In this document: positions 23,509 through 46,722 of the stretch, in pieces
Position numbering within the stretch: the stretch's first letter is position 1
How the letters are laid out: every line of letters starts with the position of its first letter
Assembly (NCBI RefSeq): GCF_001424755.1
Contig: NZ_LMRF01000001.1
Location: 1,298,205 to 1,362,204 of the forward strand
DNA: 64,000 nt
DNA from: Marmoricola sp. Leaf446
GTDB lineage: Bacteria > Actinomycetota > Actinomycetes > Propionibacteriales > Nocardioidaceae
Reading direction: 5' to 3'
Made by a program: the position numbers and the translations under genes
Notes under the pieces: model-generated
What the model saw: only the letters and a program-made list of their open reading frames with translations
The model's database searches: none
What the model was told of the DNA's origin: nothing

Positions 23509-23558
23509 GCAGGGGACCGACCGGCACGACACGCGCAGCGGGTGTCGCCGTGGCTGGC

Positions 23559-23564
23559 TAGATT
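23559..23564 (+). promoter_or_regulatory. -10 box of the NHEJ polymerase gene (leaderless)
   Basis: TAGATT ends 6 nt before the ATG at 23571, with GCAGCC between and no Shine-Dalgarno sequence. Confidence 0.5.
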
Positions 23565-23570
23565 GCAGCC

Positions 23571-24647
23571 ATGGCGACACCCGCTGCGCACGTCCAGGCC
23601 GACGACCACGAGGTGCGGGTGACCAGCCCCGACCGGGTGATCTACCCGGCGACCGACCGCACGCCCGAGGTCACCAAGCTCCAGGTGGTGGAGTACTACG
23701 TCGCGGTCCGCGAGGGCATCATGCGCGCGCTCACCGACCGGCCGGTCGCCCTGGAGCGGTGGACCACCGGCGTCCACGAGGGGATCACGCTGGCCACCGG
23801 TCGCGGCGACAAGAGCGACGCCTTCTACTCCAAGCGGGTGCCCAAGGGCGCCCCGCCGTACGTCGGCACCGCCCGCGTCGCCTTCCCCAGCGGCCGCCCC
23901 GCCGAGGAGGTGTGCGTGACCAACCTCGCCACCGTCGGCTGGTGCGCCCAGATGGGCACCATCACCTTCCACCCGTGGCCCACGCGCAGCGGCGACAACG
24001 ACCACCCCGACGAGCTGCGCATCGACCTCGACCCCCAACCGGGCACCACCTTCACCGACGCCGTCCGGGTCGCCGGCGTGGCCTGCGAGCTCCTCGAGGA
24101 GCTCGGCATCACCGGCTACCCCAAGACCAGCGGCAACCGCGGCGTGCACGTCTACGTCCGCATCGAGCCGCGCTGGGACTTCGTCGACGTCCGCCACGCC
24201 GCCATCGGCTTCGGGCGGGCCCTGGAGCAGCGCGACGAGGGCGTCACCACCCGCTGGTGGAAGGAGGAGCGCGGCGAGCGCATCTTCGTCGACTTCAACC
24301 AGAACGCCCGCGACCGCACCATCGCCTCGGCGTACTCCCTGCGGCCGCGGCCCGGTGCGCCGGTCTCGACGCCGGTGACCTGGGAGGAGCTCGCCGGCCT
24401 CACCGACCCGCGCGACTTCCACCTGTTCTCGGTGCCCGACCGGCTCGCCGATGGCGACCCCTGGGCGGGCATCGACGACACCGCCCACTCCCTCGAGCCG
24501 CTGCTGCGCCTCTACGAGGAGTCGGGGGAGGGGGAGGCCAACTACCCGCCCGACTACCCCAAGATGCCGGGCGAGCCGCCGCGGGTGCAGCCGTCGAAGA
24601 AGGTCGCCTCGCACTGGGACGACGAGGGCAACCGCGTCGAGGGCTGA
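23571..24647 (+). CDS. LigD-type polymerase/primase domain protein (NHEJ)
   Basis: A 358-aa stand-alone archaeo-eukaryotic primase-type polymerase of the LigD PolDom family. The active-site DxD is in LRIDLDPQPGTTF (about residue 146). GYPKTSGNRGVHVYV, FVDFNQNARDRTIASAYSLR and the C-terminal DYPKMPGEPPRVQPSKK are typical family segments. In NHEJ such enzymes fill gaps with ribonucleotides at broken ends. Here the polymerase, a ligase (25584-26687) and no phosphoesterase domain are separate genes; no Ku gene is in the window. Confidence 0.9.
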   Translation: MATPAAHVQADDHEVRVTSPDRVIYPATDRTPEVTKLQVVEYYVAVREGIMRALTDRPVALERWTTGVHEGITLATGRGDKSDAFYSKRVPKGAPPYVGTARVAFPSGRPAEEVCVTNLATVGWCAQMGTITFHPWPTRSGDNDHPDELRIDLDPQPGTTFTDAVRVAGVACELLEELGITGYPKTSGNRGVHVYVRIEPRWDFVDVRHAAIGFGRALEQRDEGVTTRWWKEERGERIFVDFNQNARDRTIASAYSLRPRPGAPVSTPVTWEELAGLTDPRDFHLFSVPDRLADGDPWAGIDDTAHSLEPLLRLYEESGEGEANYPPDYPKMPGEPPRVQPSKKVASHWDDEGNRVEG

Positions 24648-28396: not shown

Positions 28397-28803
28397 ACGG
28401 CTACCAGTACGTCGTGCTGCGCTGCGTCCCGCGCGTCGAGCGCGAGGAGTTCCTCAACGTCGGCGTCGTCCTCTACTCCGAGGCGGCGGGGTTCCTGGCC
28501 TGCGCCGGCCGGGTCGACGACCAGCGGCTGCGCGCCCTCGACGCAGGGCTCGACCCCGAGCTCGTCCGGAGGGCTCTCCAGGGGGTCGAGGAGGTGTGCC
28601 GCGGCGAGGGCCGCCTCGACCTCGCGGTGGGGGCACGGGCCACGGCGTACGGCACCCGCGAGGCCGCCGACACCCTCGGCACCCGCTTCGGGCTGCTCCG
28701 CGCGCCCCGCAGCACCGTGGTGCAGCCCGGCCCGGTCCACGGCGGCCTCACCGACGACCCCGCGGCCGAGCTGCCGCGCCTGCTGGCGGCCTACGTCGGG
28801 TAG
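28393..28803 (+). CDS. DUF3037 protein, partner of the HipA-like kinase
   Basis: A 136-aa soluble protein matching DUF3037: YQYVVLRCVPRVEREEFLNVGVVLYS (about residues 4-29) and a C-terminal GLTDDPAAELPRLLAAYVG. The GTG at 28393 overlaps the HipA-like stop (GTGA), implying a fixed stoichiometry with the kinase. The biochemical role is unknown. The TAG stop lies inside the stem of the following terminator. Confidence 0.82.
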   Translation: MNGYQYVVLRCVPRVEREEFLNVGVVLYSEAAGFLACAGRVDDQRLRALDAGLDPELVRRALQGVEEVCRGEGRLDLAVGARATAYGTREAADTLGTRFGLLRAPRSTVVQPGPVHGGLTDDPAAELPRLLAAYVG

Positions 28804-28859
28804 TCCGAGACGAAAAGCACCACTAGGAGCCTCCCGGCGGTGCTCCTCGTCTCGGACTA
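28801..28859. terminator. Strong bidirectional hairpin; stop codon of DUF3037 in the stem
   Basis: A 12-bp perfect outer stem (TAGTCCGAGACG, 28801-28812, with CGTCTCGGACTA, 28848-28859) encloses a 6-bp inner stem (28816-28821 with 28839-28844). The first three bases are the TAG stop of the DUF3037 gene. The sirohydrochlorin chelatase gene converges from the other side and ends at 28873. Confidence 0.75.
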
Positions 28860-28872
28860 CCCGCAGGCGGGG

Positions 28873-42334: not shown

Positions 42335-42335
<1 letters not shown>
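41088..42335 (+). CDS. glgC: Glucose-1-phosphate adenylyltransferase
   Basis: A 415-aa enzyme that makes ADP-glucose from ATP and glucose-1-phosphate, the committed step of bacterial glycogen synthesis. The pyrophosphorylase domain shows [26 protein letters not shown] (about residues 14-39), FSQMVD, and the [12 protein letters not shown] and YWRDVGTM segments. A left-handed beta-helix (about residues 310-405, [20 protein letters not shown] repeats) closes the protein. The length is typical. It overlaps pgm by one base (TGATG). Confidence 0.95.
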
Positions 42336-43981
<1,646 letters not shown>

Positions 43982-43987
43982 TCGGTT

Positions 43988-44071
43988 CGCAGACGCGCGG
44001 ACACAAGTCGGCGGATCGGTCCGGTTTCAGGCGGTTCGCCCACGTCCTCGCAGGACTTGTGTCCGCGCGTC
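43988..44071. repeat. Hairpin repeat, copy 1 (DUF559 3' end)
   Basis: Left arm 43992-44009 and right arm 44054-44071 are perfectly complementary over 18 bp (GACGCGCGGACACAAGTC and its complement), with a 44-nt loop. The 21 bases from 43988 are identical to the left arm of copy 2, and the loop shares 14 bases (CGGTTCGCCCACGT) in the same orientation. The DUF559 stop codon is in the loop and its last codons form the right arm. Confidence 0.85.
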
Positions 44072-44911
44072 CACGACTCGCTGCAGCACGTCGAGCACGT
44101 ACGCCGGGTCGTGCATGACGTCCTCCCAGGAGAACCGCAGCACCGTCCAACCGTCGACGACCAGGAGGTTGTAGCGACGGGCATCGCGGCGCAGGGCCGA
44201 CCGGTCGCCGTGCCACTCGAAGGAGTCGGCCTCGAGAATGATCCGCAGCCGGGTGTCGACGAGGTCGGGTCGCACCGTCGTCCTCGAGCCGACGACACGC
44301 AGCTGCGGGCTCACTTGGAGTCCCTCGACCTGCAGCGCGAGGGCACGCAGGCACGACTCGAACGGGTTGGCGGCGCTCCCGTCGGCGTGACGAGCGACGT
44401 GGCGCACGGCGGGGCGACCGCGGCCACGGATGGTTGCCGCGATGTCGGTCAGCACCTCGCGGCGTACGCCGTGGCGCAGCGCGGAGTCGCCGATCGCCAG
44501 CCCCTCGTCGACAGGGAGGGTCCGCAGGCAGTCGAGCAGCGTGCGGCGGGCCGACGTGCAGATGTCGTCGACGACCTCGTCCGACCCGAGGTCGGAACGG
44601 TGGGGGACCACCGTCGGCGGCGTGGCCAGACGCCGGCGACGTGGGACGGTGACGTGCGTCTTGTCGGGCAGGGTCTTCACCTCCCAGCCGTGCCACAGCG
44701 CGGCGCTGACGTGGCTGAGCACGCCGCGCAGCCCGTGCGCCGTCATCACGTCGAGGTCGAGGCCCGGCAGCCCGTAGCGGCCCCGCGACACCCACACGAT
44801 GTGCCCGACCCTCACGGCTCGGTCGAACTCGCTCCGCCCGGTCGCCTCGACCAGCTCGCCCCAGGTCGCGAAGCCCCCTCGCTGGACGAGGAAGCGCACG
44901 GCATCGGACAC
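44027..44911 (-). CDS. AbiEi-like winged-helix / DUF559 (Vsr-like endonuclease fold) protein
   Basis: A 294-aa protein. Residues 1-75 (RFLVQRGGFATWGELVEATGRSEFDRAVRVGHIVWVSRGRYGLP) form an AbiEi-type winged helix-turn-helix. A middle region follows (HVSAALWHGWEVKTLPDKTHVTVPRRRR). Residues 200-285 match DUF559, a PD-(D/E)XK/Vsr-like fold: PDLVDTRLRIILEADSFEWHG and YNLLVVDGWTVLRFSWEDVM, with candidate acidic residues Asp and Glu in the first segment. Such genes are common in actinobacteria and often multi-copy; a defence or mobile role is suspected but unproven. The GTG at 44911 is the first start after the upstream hairpin. Both flanks carry the same long hairpin repeat. Confidence 0.8.
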   Translation of the reverse strand: MSDAVRFLVQRGGFATWGELVEATGRSEFDRAVRVGHIVWVSRGRYGLPGLDLDVMTAHGLRGVLSHVSAALWHGWEVKTLPDKTHVTVPRRRRLATPPTVVPHRSDLGSDEVVDDICTSARRTLLDCLRTLPVDEGLAIGDSALRHGVRREVLTDIAATIRGRGRPAVRHVARHADGSAANPFESCLRALALQVEGLQVSPQLRVVGSRTTVRPDLVDTRLRIILEADSFEWHGDRSALRRDARRYNLLVVDGWTVLRFSWEDVMHDPAYVLDVLQRVVDARTQVLRGRGRTA

Positions 44912-44975
44912 GCCGACACCCTGACCCGACTCCGCTGCGTCGTCGAACGGCCGTCCACAGGACTCGCCGCCGGCG

Positions 44976-45063
44976 CGCAGACGCGCGGACACAAGTTCGT
45001 CGGAGCGTCCGGTTCGCCCACGTTCGTCTACCCCGGACGCGGACTTGTGTCCGCGCGTCTGCG
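44976..45063. repeat. Hairpin repeat, copy 2 (upstream of DUF559 gene)
   Basis: Arms 44976-44996 and 45043-45063 are perfectly complementary over 21 bp (CGCAGACGCGCGGACACAAGT and its complement) with a 46-nt loop. It has the same orientation as copy 1 and lies 65 bases before the DUF559 start and 16 bases beyond the end of the acyl-CoA dehydrogenase gene, for which it could serve as a terminator. Confidence 0.85.
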
Positions 45064-45078
45064 AGAAACGCCCGACGC

Positions 45079-46722
45079 TCAGACGACGGGGGTGGCGCGG
45101 GTGACGATGGTGGCGAGGTCGGTGCCGACGGGCAGCGTGCCGAGGGTGCCGTTGTAGTCGCCGCCCAGGCGGGTGGCGCAGAAGGCGTCGGCGACGTCGG
45201 GGTCGGCGAGGCGGAGCAGGAGCGAGGCCTGGAGGCAGGCGGCCATCTGGCCGGCGAGGCGGCGGGCGGAGTGCTCGAGGGTCTCCACCTCGCCGAGCAT
45301 GGTCAGGACGCCCTCGACGGCGCGGTCGAGGCGGGGGTCCTCGCCGCGGGCGAGACCGACCTCGGTCAGCCAGGCGGCCAGCGTCTCGGGCTCGCGCGTC
45401 AGGGCGCGCAGCACGTCCAGGGCGTTGACGTTGCCCGAGCCCTCCCACACCGAGTTCAGCGGCGACTCGCGGAACAGCAGCGGCAGCCCGGACTCCTCGA
45501 CGTAGCCGTTGCCGCCCAGGCACTCCAGCGCCTCGGCCACCATCATCGGCGTGCGCTTGCACACCCAGAACTTCGCGAGCGGCAGCGCGATCCGGCGCAG
45601 CGCCGCCTCGTGGGGGTCCGTACGCCGGTCCACGGCGCTCGCCAGCCGCATGGCCAGCACCGTCGCCGCCTCGGACTCCACCGCCAGATCGGCCACCACG
45701 TTGCGCATCAGCGGCTTGTCGCCCAGCAGCCCGCCGAACGCCGACCGGTGCGCCACGTGCCACGACGCCTCGGCCAGCGCCTTGCGCATCAGCGAGGCCG
45801 ACCCGATGACGCAGTCGAGGCGGGTGGCGGCGACCATCTCGATGATCGTGCGCACGCCGCGGCCCTCGTCGCCGAGCCGCTGCGCCCAGGTGCCCTCCAG
45901 CTCGAGCTCGGCCGAGGCGTTGGAGCGGTTGCCCAGCTTGTCCTTGAGCCGTACGACGTCGATGCGGTTGCGCTCGCCCGAGGGCAGCACCCGGGGCACC
46001 AGGAAGCACGACAGCCCGTCCGGGGCCTGGGCCAGCACCAGGAAGACGTCGTTCATCGGGGCGGAGGTGAACCACTTGTGGCCGTGCAGGGTGTACTCCC
46101 CGTCGACCGAGGTCGGCCGGGCCGCCGTCTCGTTGGCGCGCACGTCGGACCCGCCCTGCTTCTCGGTCATCCCCATCCCGGCCAGCGCGCCGCCCTTGTC
46201 GGCCAGCAGCCGCACGCCCGGGTCGTAGGAGGTCGCGGCCAGCTTGGGCGTCCACTCCTTGGCCAGCGCGTCGTCGACGCGCAGGGCGGGGACGGCGGCG
46301 TACGTCATCGAGATCGGGCAGCCGTGCCCCGGCTCGGTCTGCGACCAGGCGAAGAACCCGGCGGCGCGACGCAGGTGGGCGTGCGGGGCGCCGGACTCCT
46401 GCTGCTCCCAGGGCGCCGCCTGCAGCCCGTGGCCGACCGCGCGCTCCATCAGCCAGTGCCACGAGGGGTGGAAGCGGACCTCGTCGACGCGGTTGCCGTA
46501 GCGGTCGACGGTCACCAGCTCGGGGTGGTGCACGTTGGCCAGCCGGCCGTGCTCGCGGGCCTCCTCGGTGCCGGCCTCGCGGCCCAGGTCGCCCAGCGTC
46601 TCGACGACGCCGTCGGGGGCGTGGCTGCGCACCGCGTCGACCAGCGCGGTGTCGGAGGTCACGACGTCGTGGCCGACGAGCGGCGGGGCCTGGTTGCGGG
46701 CTACCCGGGAGTCGGCGCTCAT
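45079..46722 (-). CDS. AidB-like acyl-CoA dehydrogenase family protein
   Basis: A 547-aa flavoprotein, close to the 541 aa of E. coli AidB and longer than ordinary acyl-CoA dehydrogenases (about 390 aa). GMGMTEKQGGSDVRANET (about residues 180-197) and YTLHGHKWFTSAPMNDVFLVLAQ bind FAD. ECLGGNGYVEESGLPLLFRESPLNSVWEGSGNVNALDVLRAL (about residues 410-450) contains the AidB-like C-terminal signature. AidB is linked to alkylation resistance and binds DNA; catalytic substrate is uncertain. A TACGGT -10 box ends 6 nt before the ATG. Confidence 0.9.
   Translation of the reverse strand: MSADSRVARNQAPPLVGHDVVTSDTALVDAVRSHAPDGVVETLGDLGREAGTEEAREHGRLANVHHPELVTVDRYGNRVDEVRFHPSWHWLMERAVGHGLQAAPWEQQESGAPHAHLRRAAGFFAWSQTEPGHGCPISMTYAAVPALRVDDALAKEWTPKLAATSYDPGVRLLADKGGALAGMGMTEKQGGSDVRANETAARPTSVDGEYTLHGHKWFTSAPMNDVFLVLAQAPDGLSCFLVPRVLPSGERNRIDVVRLKDKLGNRSNASAELELEGTWAQRLGDEGRGVRTIIEMVAATRLDCVIGSASLMRKALAEASWHVAHRSAFGGLLGDKPLMRNVVADLAVESEAATVLAMRLASAVDRRTDPHEAALRRIALPLAKFWVCKRTPMMVAEALECLGGNGYVEESGLPLLFRESPLNSVWEGSGNVNALDVLRALTREPETLAAWLTEVGLARGEDPRLDRAVEGVLTMLGEVETLEHSARRLAGQMAACLQASLLLRLADPDVADAFCATRLGGDYNGTLGTLPVGTDLATIVTRATPVV

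Follow-up and report, generated by a model that had tools for sequence, protein, structure and literature searches.

An AbiEi–Vsr nuclease gene between copies of its own dispersed hairpin: a possible counterpart of REPIN–RAYT systems in actinobacteria

The DNA analyzed here is a window of 64,000 nucleotides from the 3.8-Mb genome of Marmoricola sp. Leaf446 (genome G000 below). On its reverse strand, positions 44027..44911 (GTG start at 44911, TGA stop at 44027) encode a protein of 294 aa predicted to combine an AbiEi fold with a Vsr/EDxHD nuclease domain. The gene is bracketed by two copies of a long hairpin, called type A, to which no strand is assigned. Copy 1 (43987..44076), at the 3' end of the gene, consists of CGNAGACGCGCGGACACAAGT arms (43987-44009 and 44054-44076) separated by a 44-nt loop. 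Copy 2 (44976..45063, arms 44976-44999 and 45040-45063) lies on the 5' side of the nuclease gene and 3' of an AidB-like gene. Both copies have the same orientation. An earlier note, made from the letters of this DNA alone, had described two flanking hairpins sharing a left arm and a stretch of loop, and the coordinates verify the arms, the sequence CGCAGACGCGCGGACACAAGT common to the left arms and the presence of CGGTTCGCCCACGT at 44032 in one loop and at 45010 in the other, with identical orientation. This loop 14-mer is offset by ~10 nt between the copies and is therefore out of register with the arms. The final codons of the nuclease gene and its stop are located inside copy 1 (TGA 44027 falls within 43987-44076), as the note had also stated, and its placement of the locus between two housekeeping genes was borne out by Pfam: the phosphoglucomutase gene pgm (42335..43981, forward strand) ends 5 bp before copy 1, and the gene for an AidB-like acyl-CoA dehydrogenase (45079..46722, reverse strand) ends ~15 bp to the right of copy 2. 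A search tolerating two mismatches gives five matches of the arm core in the window against 0.85 expected, a number reached in 0 of 100 shuffles. The window also contains a perfect 21-bp hairpin with a 15-nt loop at 23533-23589 (GCGCAGCGGGTGTCGCCGTGG...CCATGGCGACACCCGCTGCGC).

The AlphaFold model of the 294-aa protein has a mean pLDDT of 90.3. Its N-terminal ~180 residues form a whole AbiEi fold (~aa 1-179, encoded by 44375..44911, reverse strand) that resembles 6y8q (Z 10.6 over 176 residues) and Rv2827c (1zel, Z 6.6), and PADLOC AbiEi models match this part with E 9e-10. AbiEi and Rv2827c bind inverted repeats via their N-terminal domain and autoregulate in this way (PMC7319586), which renders arm recognition by the N-terminal domain plausible; binding of the hairpin arms is a prediction, to which the tracking of this domain by arm sequence (see below) contributes. 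The last ~105 residues (~aa 182-287, 44051..44368, reverse strand) match DUF559 / MTES_1575 in Pfam and, in the model, the folds of 3hrl (Z 13.1), I-Bth0305I (3r3p, Z 12.9), Vsr (1cw0, Z 10.9) and TnsA (Z 8.4). Residues D235, D238, E246, H253 and D262 (model numbering) are invariant in 21 homologues. Fold and catalytic-type residues together predict that the C-terminal domain belongs to the EDxHD/Vsr nuclease superfamily, its nuclease activity being inferred.

The type A arm is dispersed in the genome. Its exact 14-mer core, GCGCGGACACAAGT, has 22 matches in the 3.8 Mb of G000 against 0 for the reversed control and, with mismatches allowed, 12 type A hairpins were found in G000, 12 in G008 and two in Nocardioides aequoreus (G001), which belongs to the same genus. 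The 26 aligned copies have CGNAGACGCGCGGACACAAGT and its complement as arm consensus and loops that differ from one copy to another; hairpin length is ~88–99 bp, and arm spacing falls into two classes, 73–75 and 84–85 nt, one helical turn apart. The core occurs in three of 24 congeneric genomes and is absent from the other 21. These three are exactly the genomes with the closest orthologue of the gene (100, 70 and 67% identity), the other congeneric homologues being at most 57% identical over full length, and in each of them the gene stands between two type A copies. The search for the arm in the genome and its relatives, proposed in the earlier note, has thus uncovered copies tracking with the gene. 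Inactivation of the G001 gene, suspected from one TGA, was ruled out since this codon is the natural stop, two codons earlier.

Such bracketing could be coincidental if long hairpins, for instance ordinary terminators, were common at gene ends in the genus; the window does contain other long hairpins, at 23533-23589, and relatives carry them at some of the same 3' sites. A background control of 400 kb from the same genus, searched for hairpins of equal strength around 165 genes, contradicts this explanation. Hairpins at both gene ends were encountered in 6 of 25 homologues and in none of the 165 other genes (Fisher P 3e-6), and a hairpin near either end in 15 of 25 against 14 of 165 (Fisher P 2e-8). 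A wider scan using one genome per species added 80 loci from Nocardioides, Terrabacter, Humibacillus, Quadrisphaera, Knoellia, Allobranchiibius and others, and its distance profile points the same way: hairpins lie within 150 bp of the gene in 30 of 79 cases upstream and 42 of 80 downstream, falling to ~0.01 per 150-bp bin beyond 600 bp, which corresponds to an enrichment of long-loop hairpins near the gene of about 30–50 times background. The 25-homologue and 80-locus sets are not fully independent, as a few loci are the same records. Copies that track with DUF559 genes, a pattern for which the earlier note had suggested looking, were therefore seen in congeners and again across many genera. 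The hairpins also lack the T tract (U tract in RNA) of an ordinary intrinsic terminator and any Rfam match, and their arms are gene-specific and matching, as described below. We attach scarcely any credence to coincidence.

The association between each gene and its cognate hairpin is specific. In 83% of 30 loci the hairpin upstream of a gene matches the one downstream of it, compared with 7.5% for hairpins of different genes. When eight arm sequences were searched in seven genomes, the type proper to each genome gave 5, 13, 9, 6, 9, 6 and 10 matches, and foreign arm types mostly 0–1 and at most three each. Counting against this pattern, Terrabacter aerolatus has hardly any dispersed copies and 29 of 103 homologous loci carry no recognizable hairpin. 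Arm similarity follows the identity of the AbiEi-like domain (Mantel r 0.54 over 74 loci; 0 of 2000 permutations as high) and, more weakly, that of the nuclease domain (r 0.34, 74 loci). Among pairs whose nuclease domains are at least 0.60 identical, arms agree in 1% for N-terminal domain identities below 0.45 and in 82% for those above 0.70. Of the 58 loci that have a 3' hairpin, 53 have it lying across the stop codon and beginning 20–55 bp ahead of it, and both the arms and the tail sequences found there are unrelated between types; this is the arrangement expected of an element with a reading frame entering its right end. At the pgm–aidB site of G002, a frame-broken homologue (L080) is 68% identical to the window's protein in its nuclease part and 44% in its N-terminal part, and it is accompanied by a different hairpin. 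Judging by these identities, it may represent a natural domain replacement, and it fits the tracking of the N-terminal domain by the arms.

Outside the three type A genomes, congeneric homologues stand between different hairpins. Seven genomes, G005, G006, G007, G009, G011, G013 and G017, carry dispersed copies of type B (ACATGCGAATGT), and G015 has a single additional copy; in all of these genomes except G013 the type B hairpin brackets or flanks the gene. Its spacing is constant (36 of 37 copies at exactly 65 nt, the ACATGCGAATGT arms being exactly 53 nt apart). Type C (ACGATCAGTTCG, arms 57 nt apart) forms pairs in G000, G002 and G008, 18 copies in all; in G002 it makes up the 3' terminus of the gene, and in G008 that of a second gene. 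Counts were restricted to paired sites because the variant ACGATCAGYTCG is common in coding sequence. Each family is confined to genomes that also have the cognate gene, apart from exceptions that count against the cognate reading: G013 has ~11 type B hairpins and no detected type B gene, and G000 has type C hairpins and no gene flanked by them. The arm-to-arm distance, fixed in types A and B despite loop drift, hints that proteins bind the duplex DNA in phase.

A blind prediction came from a second dispersed family, type D, represented in the window by a solo hairpin at 28797..28863 (RTAGTCCGAGAC...GTCTCGGACTAY, no strand assigned). Type D amounts to 14 copies in G000, 8 in G002, 8 in G008, 22 in G013 and 16 in G015, with 70 exact matches over seven genomes. 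Four pairs of copies lay ~1.2 kb apart, and a homologue was predicted to lie inside them before the DNA was read; all four enclose one, among them the homologous gene at G000:C2:378273-379537 (L294). The bracketed proteins are 41–58% identical. They have no Pfam match and only weak PADLOC AbiEi matches, their homology to the first family being recognized by hhalign (E 1.8e-8 over 217 columns); their AlphaFold model was poor (pLDDT 46) and was left out of the fold searches. One type D pair is 59/62 identical, the sole visible sign of recent copying.

These observations bear on the proposal that some other enzyme mobilizes the hairpins, for example a RAYT/Y1 transposase encoded elsewhere, the nuclease gene being a passenger or else encoding a domesticated enzyme for hairpin processing or repair. 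An HUH transposase in G000 is not ruled out, and movement caused by the nuclease has never been observed. An unrelated enzyme would nevertheless have to account for arm sequences that change together with the protein's N-terminal domain, for two distant subfamilies, A1 and D, that each have their own hairpins, and for G013, where two type D subtypes match two type D genes, each gene being flanked by one subtype. We regard this proposal as improbable.

The distribution of sites is informative about gain and loss. The pgm and aidB genes are adjacent without insert in G013, G014 and G009, which provides the empty site that the earlier note had proposed to look for in relatives. Only 3 of 11 hairpin loci are common to G000 and G008. 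Relatives whose flanks are 85–98% identical at private sites lack such a hairpin, one of them having a type C instead; neither a target-site duplication nor a sharp insertion junction was recognized in these comparisons. Same-type units occupy homologous loci in many pairs and non-homologous ones in some (e.g. L162/L165, L183/L201 and L187/L199), suggesting that the unit itself moves, but rarely. Loops at orthologous sites are alike, those of type C being practically identical between G000 and G002, and paralogous loops are hardly so: within one genome their identity is 0.59 against 0.53 for shuffled loops. Either dispersal is not recent or the loop is not preserved by the copying step. A recent burst of copying is unsupported by these identities, and the diverged loops form the main gap in the argument for mobility. 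The copies lie mainly 3' of genes, with 49 in tandem or convergent and three in divergent positions (heuristic gene calls). Downstream of sucD, a type A hairpin in G000 (L026) is replaced by other stems in G002, G013 and G001 (orthologues L109, L110 and L128). Different long hairpins at one gene end across species indicate that 3' ends are a niche common to several hairpin families.

A different role for the protein must be weighed here. The hairpins could be operators and terminators of an AbiEi-type regulator controlling its own gene and a small regulon, the nuclease having an unrelated role and the copies arising through ordinary recombination or selection. The autoregulatory binding of inverted repeats by AbiEi and Rv2827c (PMC7319586) is a precedent for this. 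Conserved arms, drifting loops and fixed spacing (36/37 in type B, two classes in type A) are also what protein-binding sites display, and a search for conserved secondary structure in the loops of types A, B and C detected no covariation. The outer flanks do covary, however (P 0.002 for type B and P 0.001 for type C), which points to a folded hairpin. Operators are moreover unexpected 3' of genes, where most copies lie (49 against three divergent), and on both sides of one gene with the 3' copy holding its stop codon, and the sites are lineage-private between close relatives. We consider regulation of this kind unlikely, while still allowing for it.

The earlier note had also entertained a defence cassette inserted by recombination, an alternative disfavored because the hairpins are gene-specific and dispersed. 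A related possibility is a defence or selfish-addiction module whose nuclease attacks DNA devoid of hairpins, or stays bound to hairpins and inactive until infection, the dispersed copies serving as self marks. The match of PADLOC AbiEi models to the N-terminal part and the resemblance of the nuclease fold to restriction and homing enzymes speak for it. Against these stand the neighbourhood, with pgm and aidB on either side and neither an AbiEii toxin nor defence genes, the copy number, since 2 to ~15 copies would not suffice as marks for a genome of 4 Mb, and a practical absence from phages and plasmids: carriage was limited to one unannotated 8.6-kb record (MT837367, 49% identity), with no plasmid and practically nothing in IMG/VR. 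A defence function appears quite improbable; like pure regulation, it stays possible but suits the two-sided, 3'-biased and gene-specific layout of the hairpins less well.

Several known systems share features with the one described here. In REPINs, two conserved arms in inverted orientation enclose a spacer of high diversity; the elements are dispersed and mostly extragenic and accompany a single cognate gene that they flank, the gene being vertically retained, and orphan hairpins occur (PMC8049555, PMC3733652). Types A–D likewise have dispersed, inverted, conserved arms with diverse spacers, and here too the cognate gene is flanked by the same repeat; the mostly extragenic position, vertical retention of the gene and orphan hairpins are shared as well. 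In contrast to RAYTs (REP-associated tyrosine transposases, TnpA-REP), the enzyme is an AbiEi fold joined to a Vsr/EDxHD nuclease and not an HUH Y1 transposase, hence it is not filed as a RAYT. In addition, the GTAG tetranucleotide at the foot of REPs is not conserved in the A, B and C consensus, type D having GTAG or ATAG, and each type has few copies, about 2-22. The nucleases of I-Bth0305I/Vsr and DUF559 / MTES_1575 type share the C-terminal fold and the conserved acidic and histidine residues, but here there is no intron, intein or allelic homing site, and the AbiEi fusion and dispersed hairpins are additional; dispersal to many non-allelic sites argues against a simple homing endonuclease element. 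Type IV antitoxins such as those of S. agalactiae (6y8q) and M. tuberculosis (Rv2827c, 1zel) possess the whole AbiEi fold, and relatives bind inverted repeats. Here, however, no AbiEii (DUF1814) toxin gene is adjacent, a nuclease is added and the repeats occur on both gene sides and genome-wide; lacking an AbiEii partner, the locus is not assigned to the toxin–antitoxin systems. Finally, IS200/IS605 elements and their miniature derivatives also have a hairpin at both ends of a single-gene unit and non-autonomous derivatives, but the nuclease fold differs, the hairpins of 88-99 bp have long loops and there is no TnpB.

By analogy, then, the system looks like a previously undescribed counterpart of REPIN–RAYT. 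We consider it fairly probable that it is a two-part hairpin system of this kind run by an unrelated nuclease; the association of gene and cognate hairpin is shown, mobilization being inferred and not seen. The likeness to RAYT/REP pairs raised in the earlier note is supported by the tracking of copies with the gene, the empty sites and the recurrence in 80 loci; neither finding that it held would refute it, a widespread ordinary terminator without association to DUF559 genes or the lack of any empty site in relatives, was obtained. The likeness stood up to every test applied, within two limits: the protein has no HUH transposase fold, and movement remains an inference. In the proposed mechanism, the autonomous unit would be hairpin – gene – hairpin, with the reading frame entering the right-hand hairpin. 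The AbiEi-type N-terminal domain would recognize the inverted arms of its own hairpin family (an inferred binding), the Vsr/EDxHD domain would nick or cut at the hairpin (an inferred activity), and the hairpin, or rarely the whole unit, would be copied or moved to new sites, with the nuclease as presumed cause. These sites would mostly lie just downstream of genes, where hairpins would be tolerated and may end transcripts. We lean, only slightly, towards the broader view of a second, independently evolved REPIN–RAYT solution, in which widespread actinobacterial AbiEi–Vsr nucleases of at least two distant branches (A1 and D) would recognize, cut and spread family-specific hairpins, specificity being set by the AbiEi-like domain.

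In the open-access literature, no description of such a system was found, nor any relevant link of DUF559 with hairpins, palindromic transposase systems or AbiEi; subscription papers and bioRxiv were not covered. If the interpretation is correct, domesticated mobile-hairpin systems also evolved around a class of enzymes to which hairpin dispersal had never been ascribed, and a function would be available for the DUF559/AbiEi fusions that recur in actinobacteria without assigned role, having only AbiEi-antitoxin and DUF559 model matches. With so many natural enzyme–hairpin pairs, domain swaps could probe the rules of DNA recognition directly, and a comparison with REPIN–RAYT would put to the test the idea that these systems last because they help their host.

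Two further observations concern the diversity of these hairpins. G000 encodes a second homologue (L022, G000:C2:453409-454311) with its own 3' hairpin (GACCTACAGTTCGACGC). In the Allobranchiibius genome G029 (L225), an AT-rich query spacer gave many paired matches ~55 nt apart, which suggests another abundant hairpin family.
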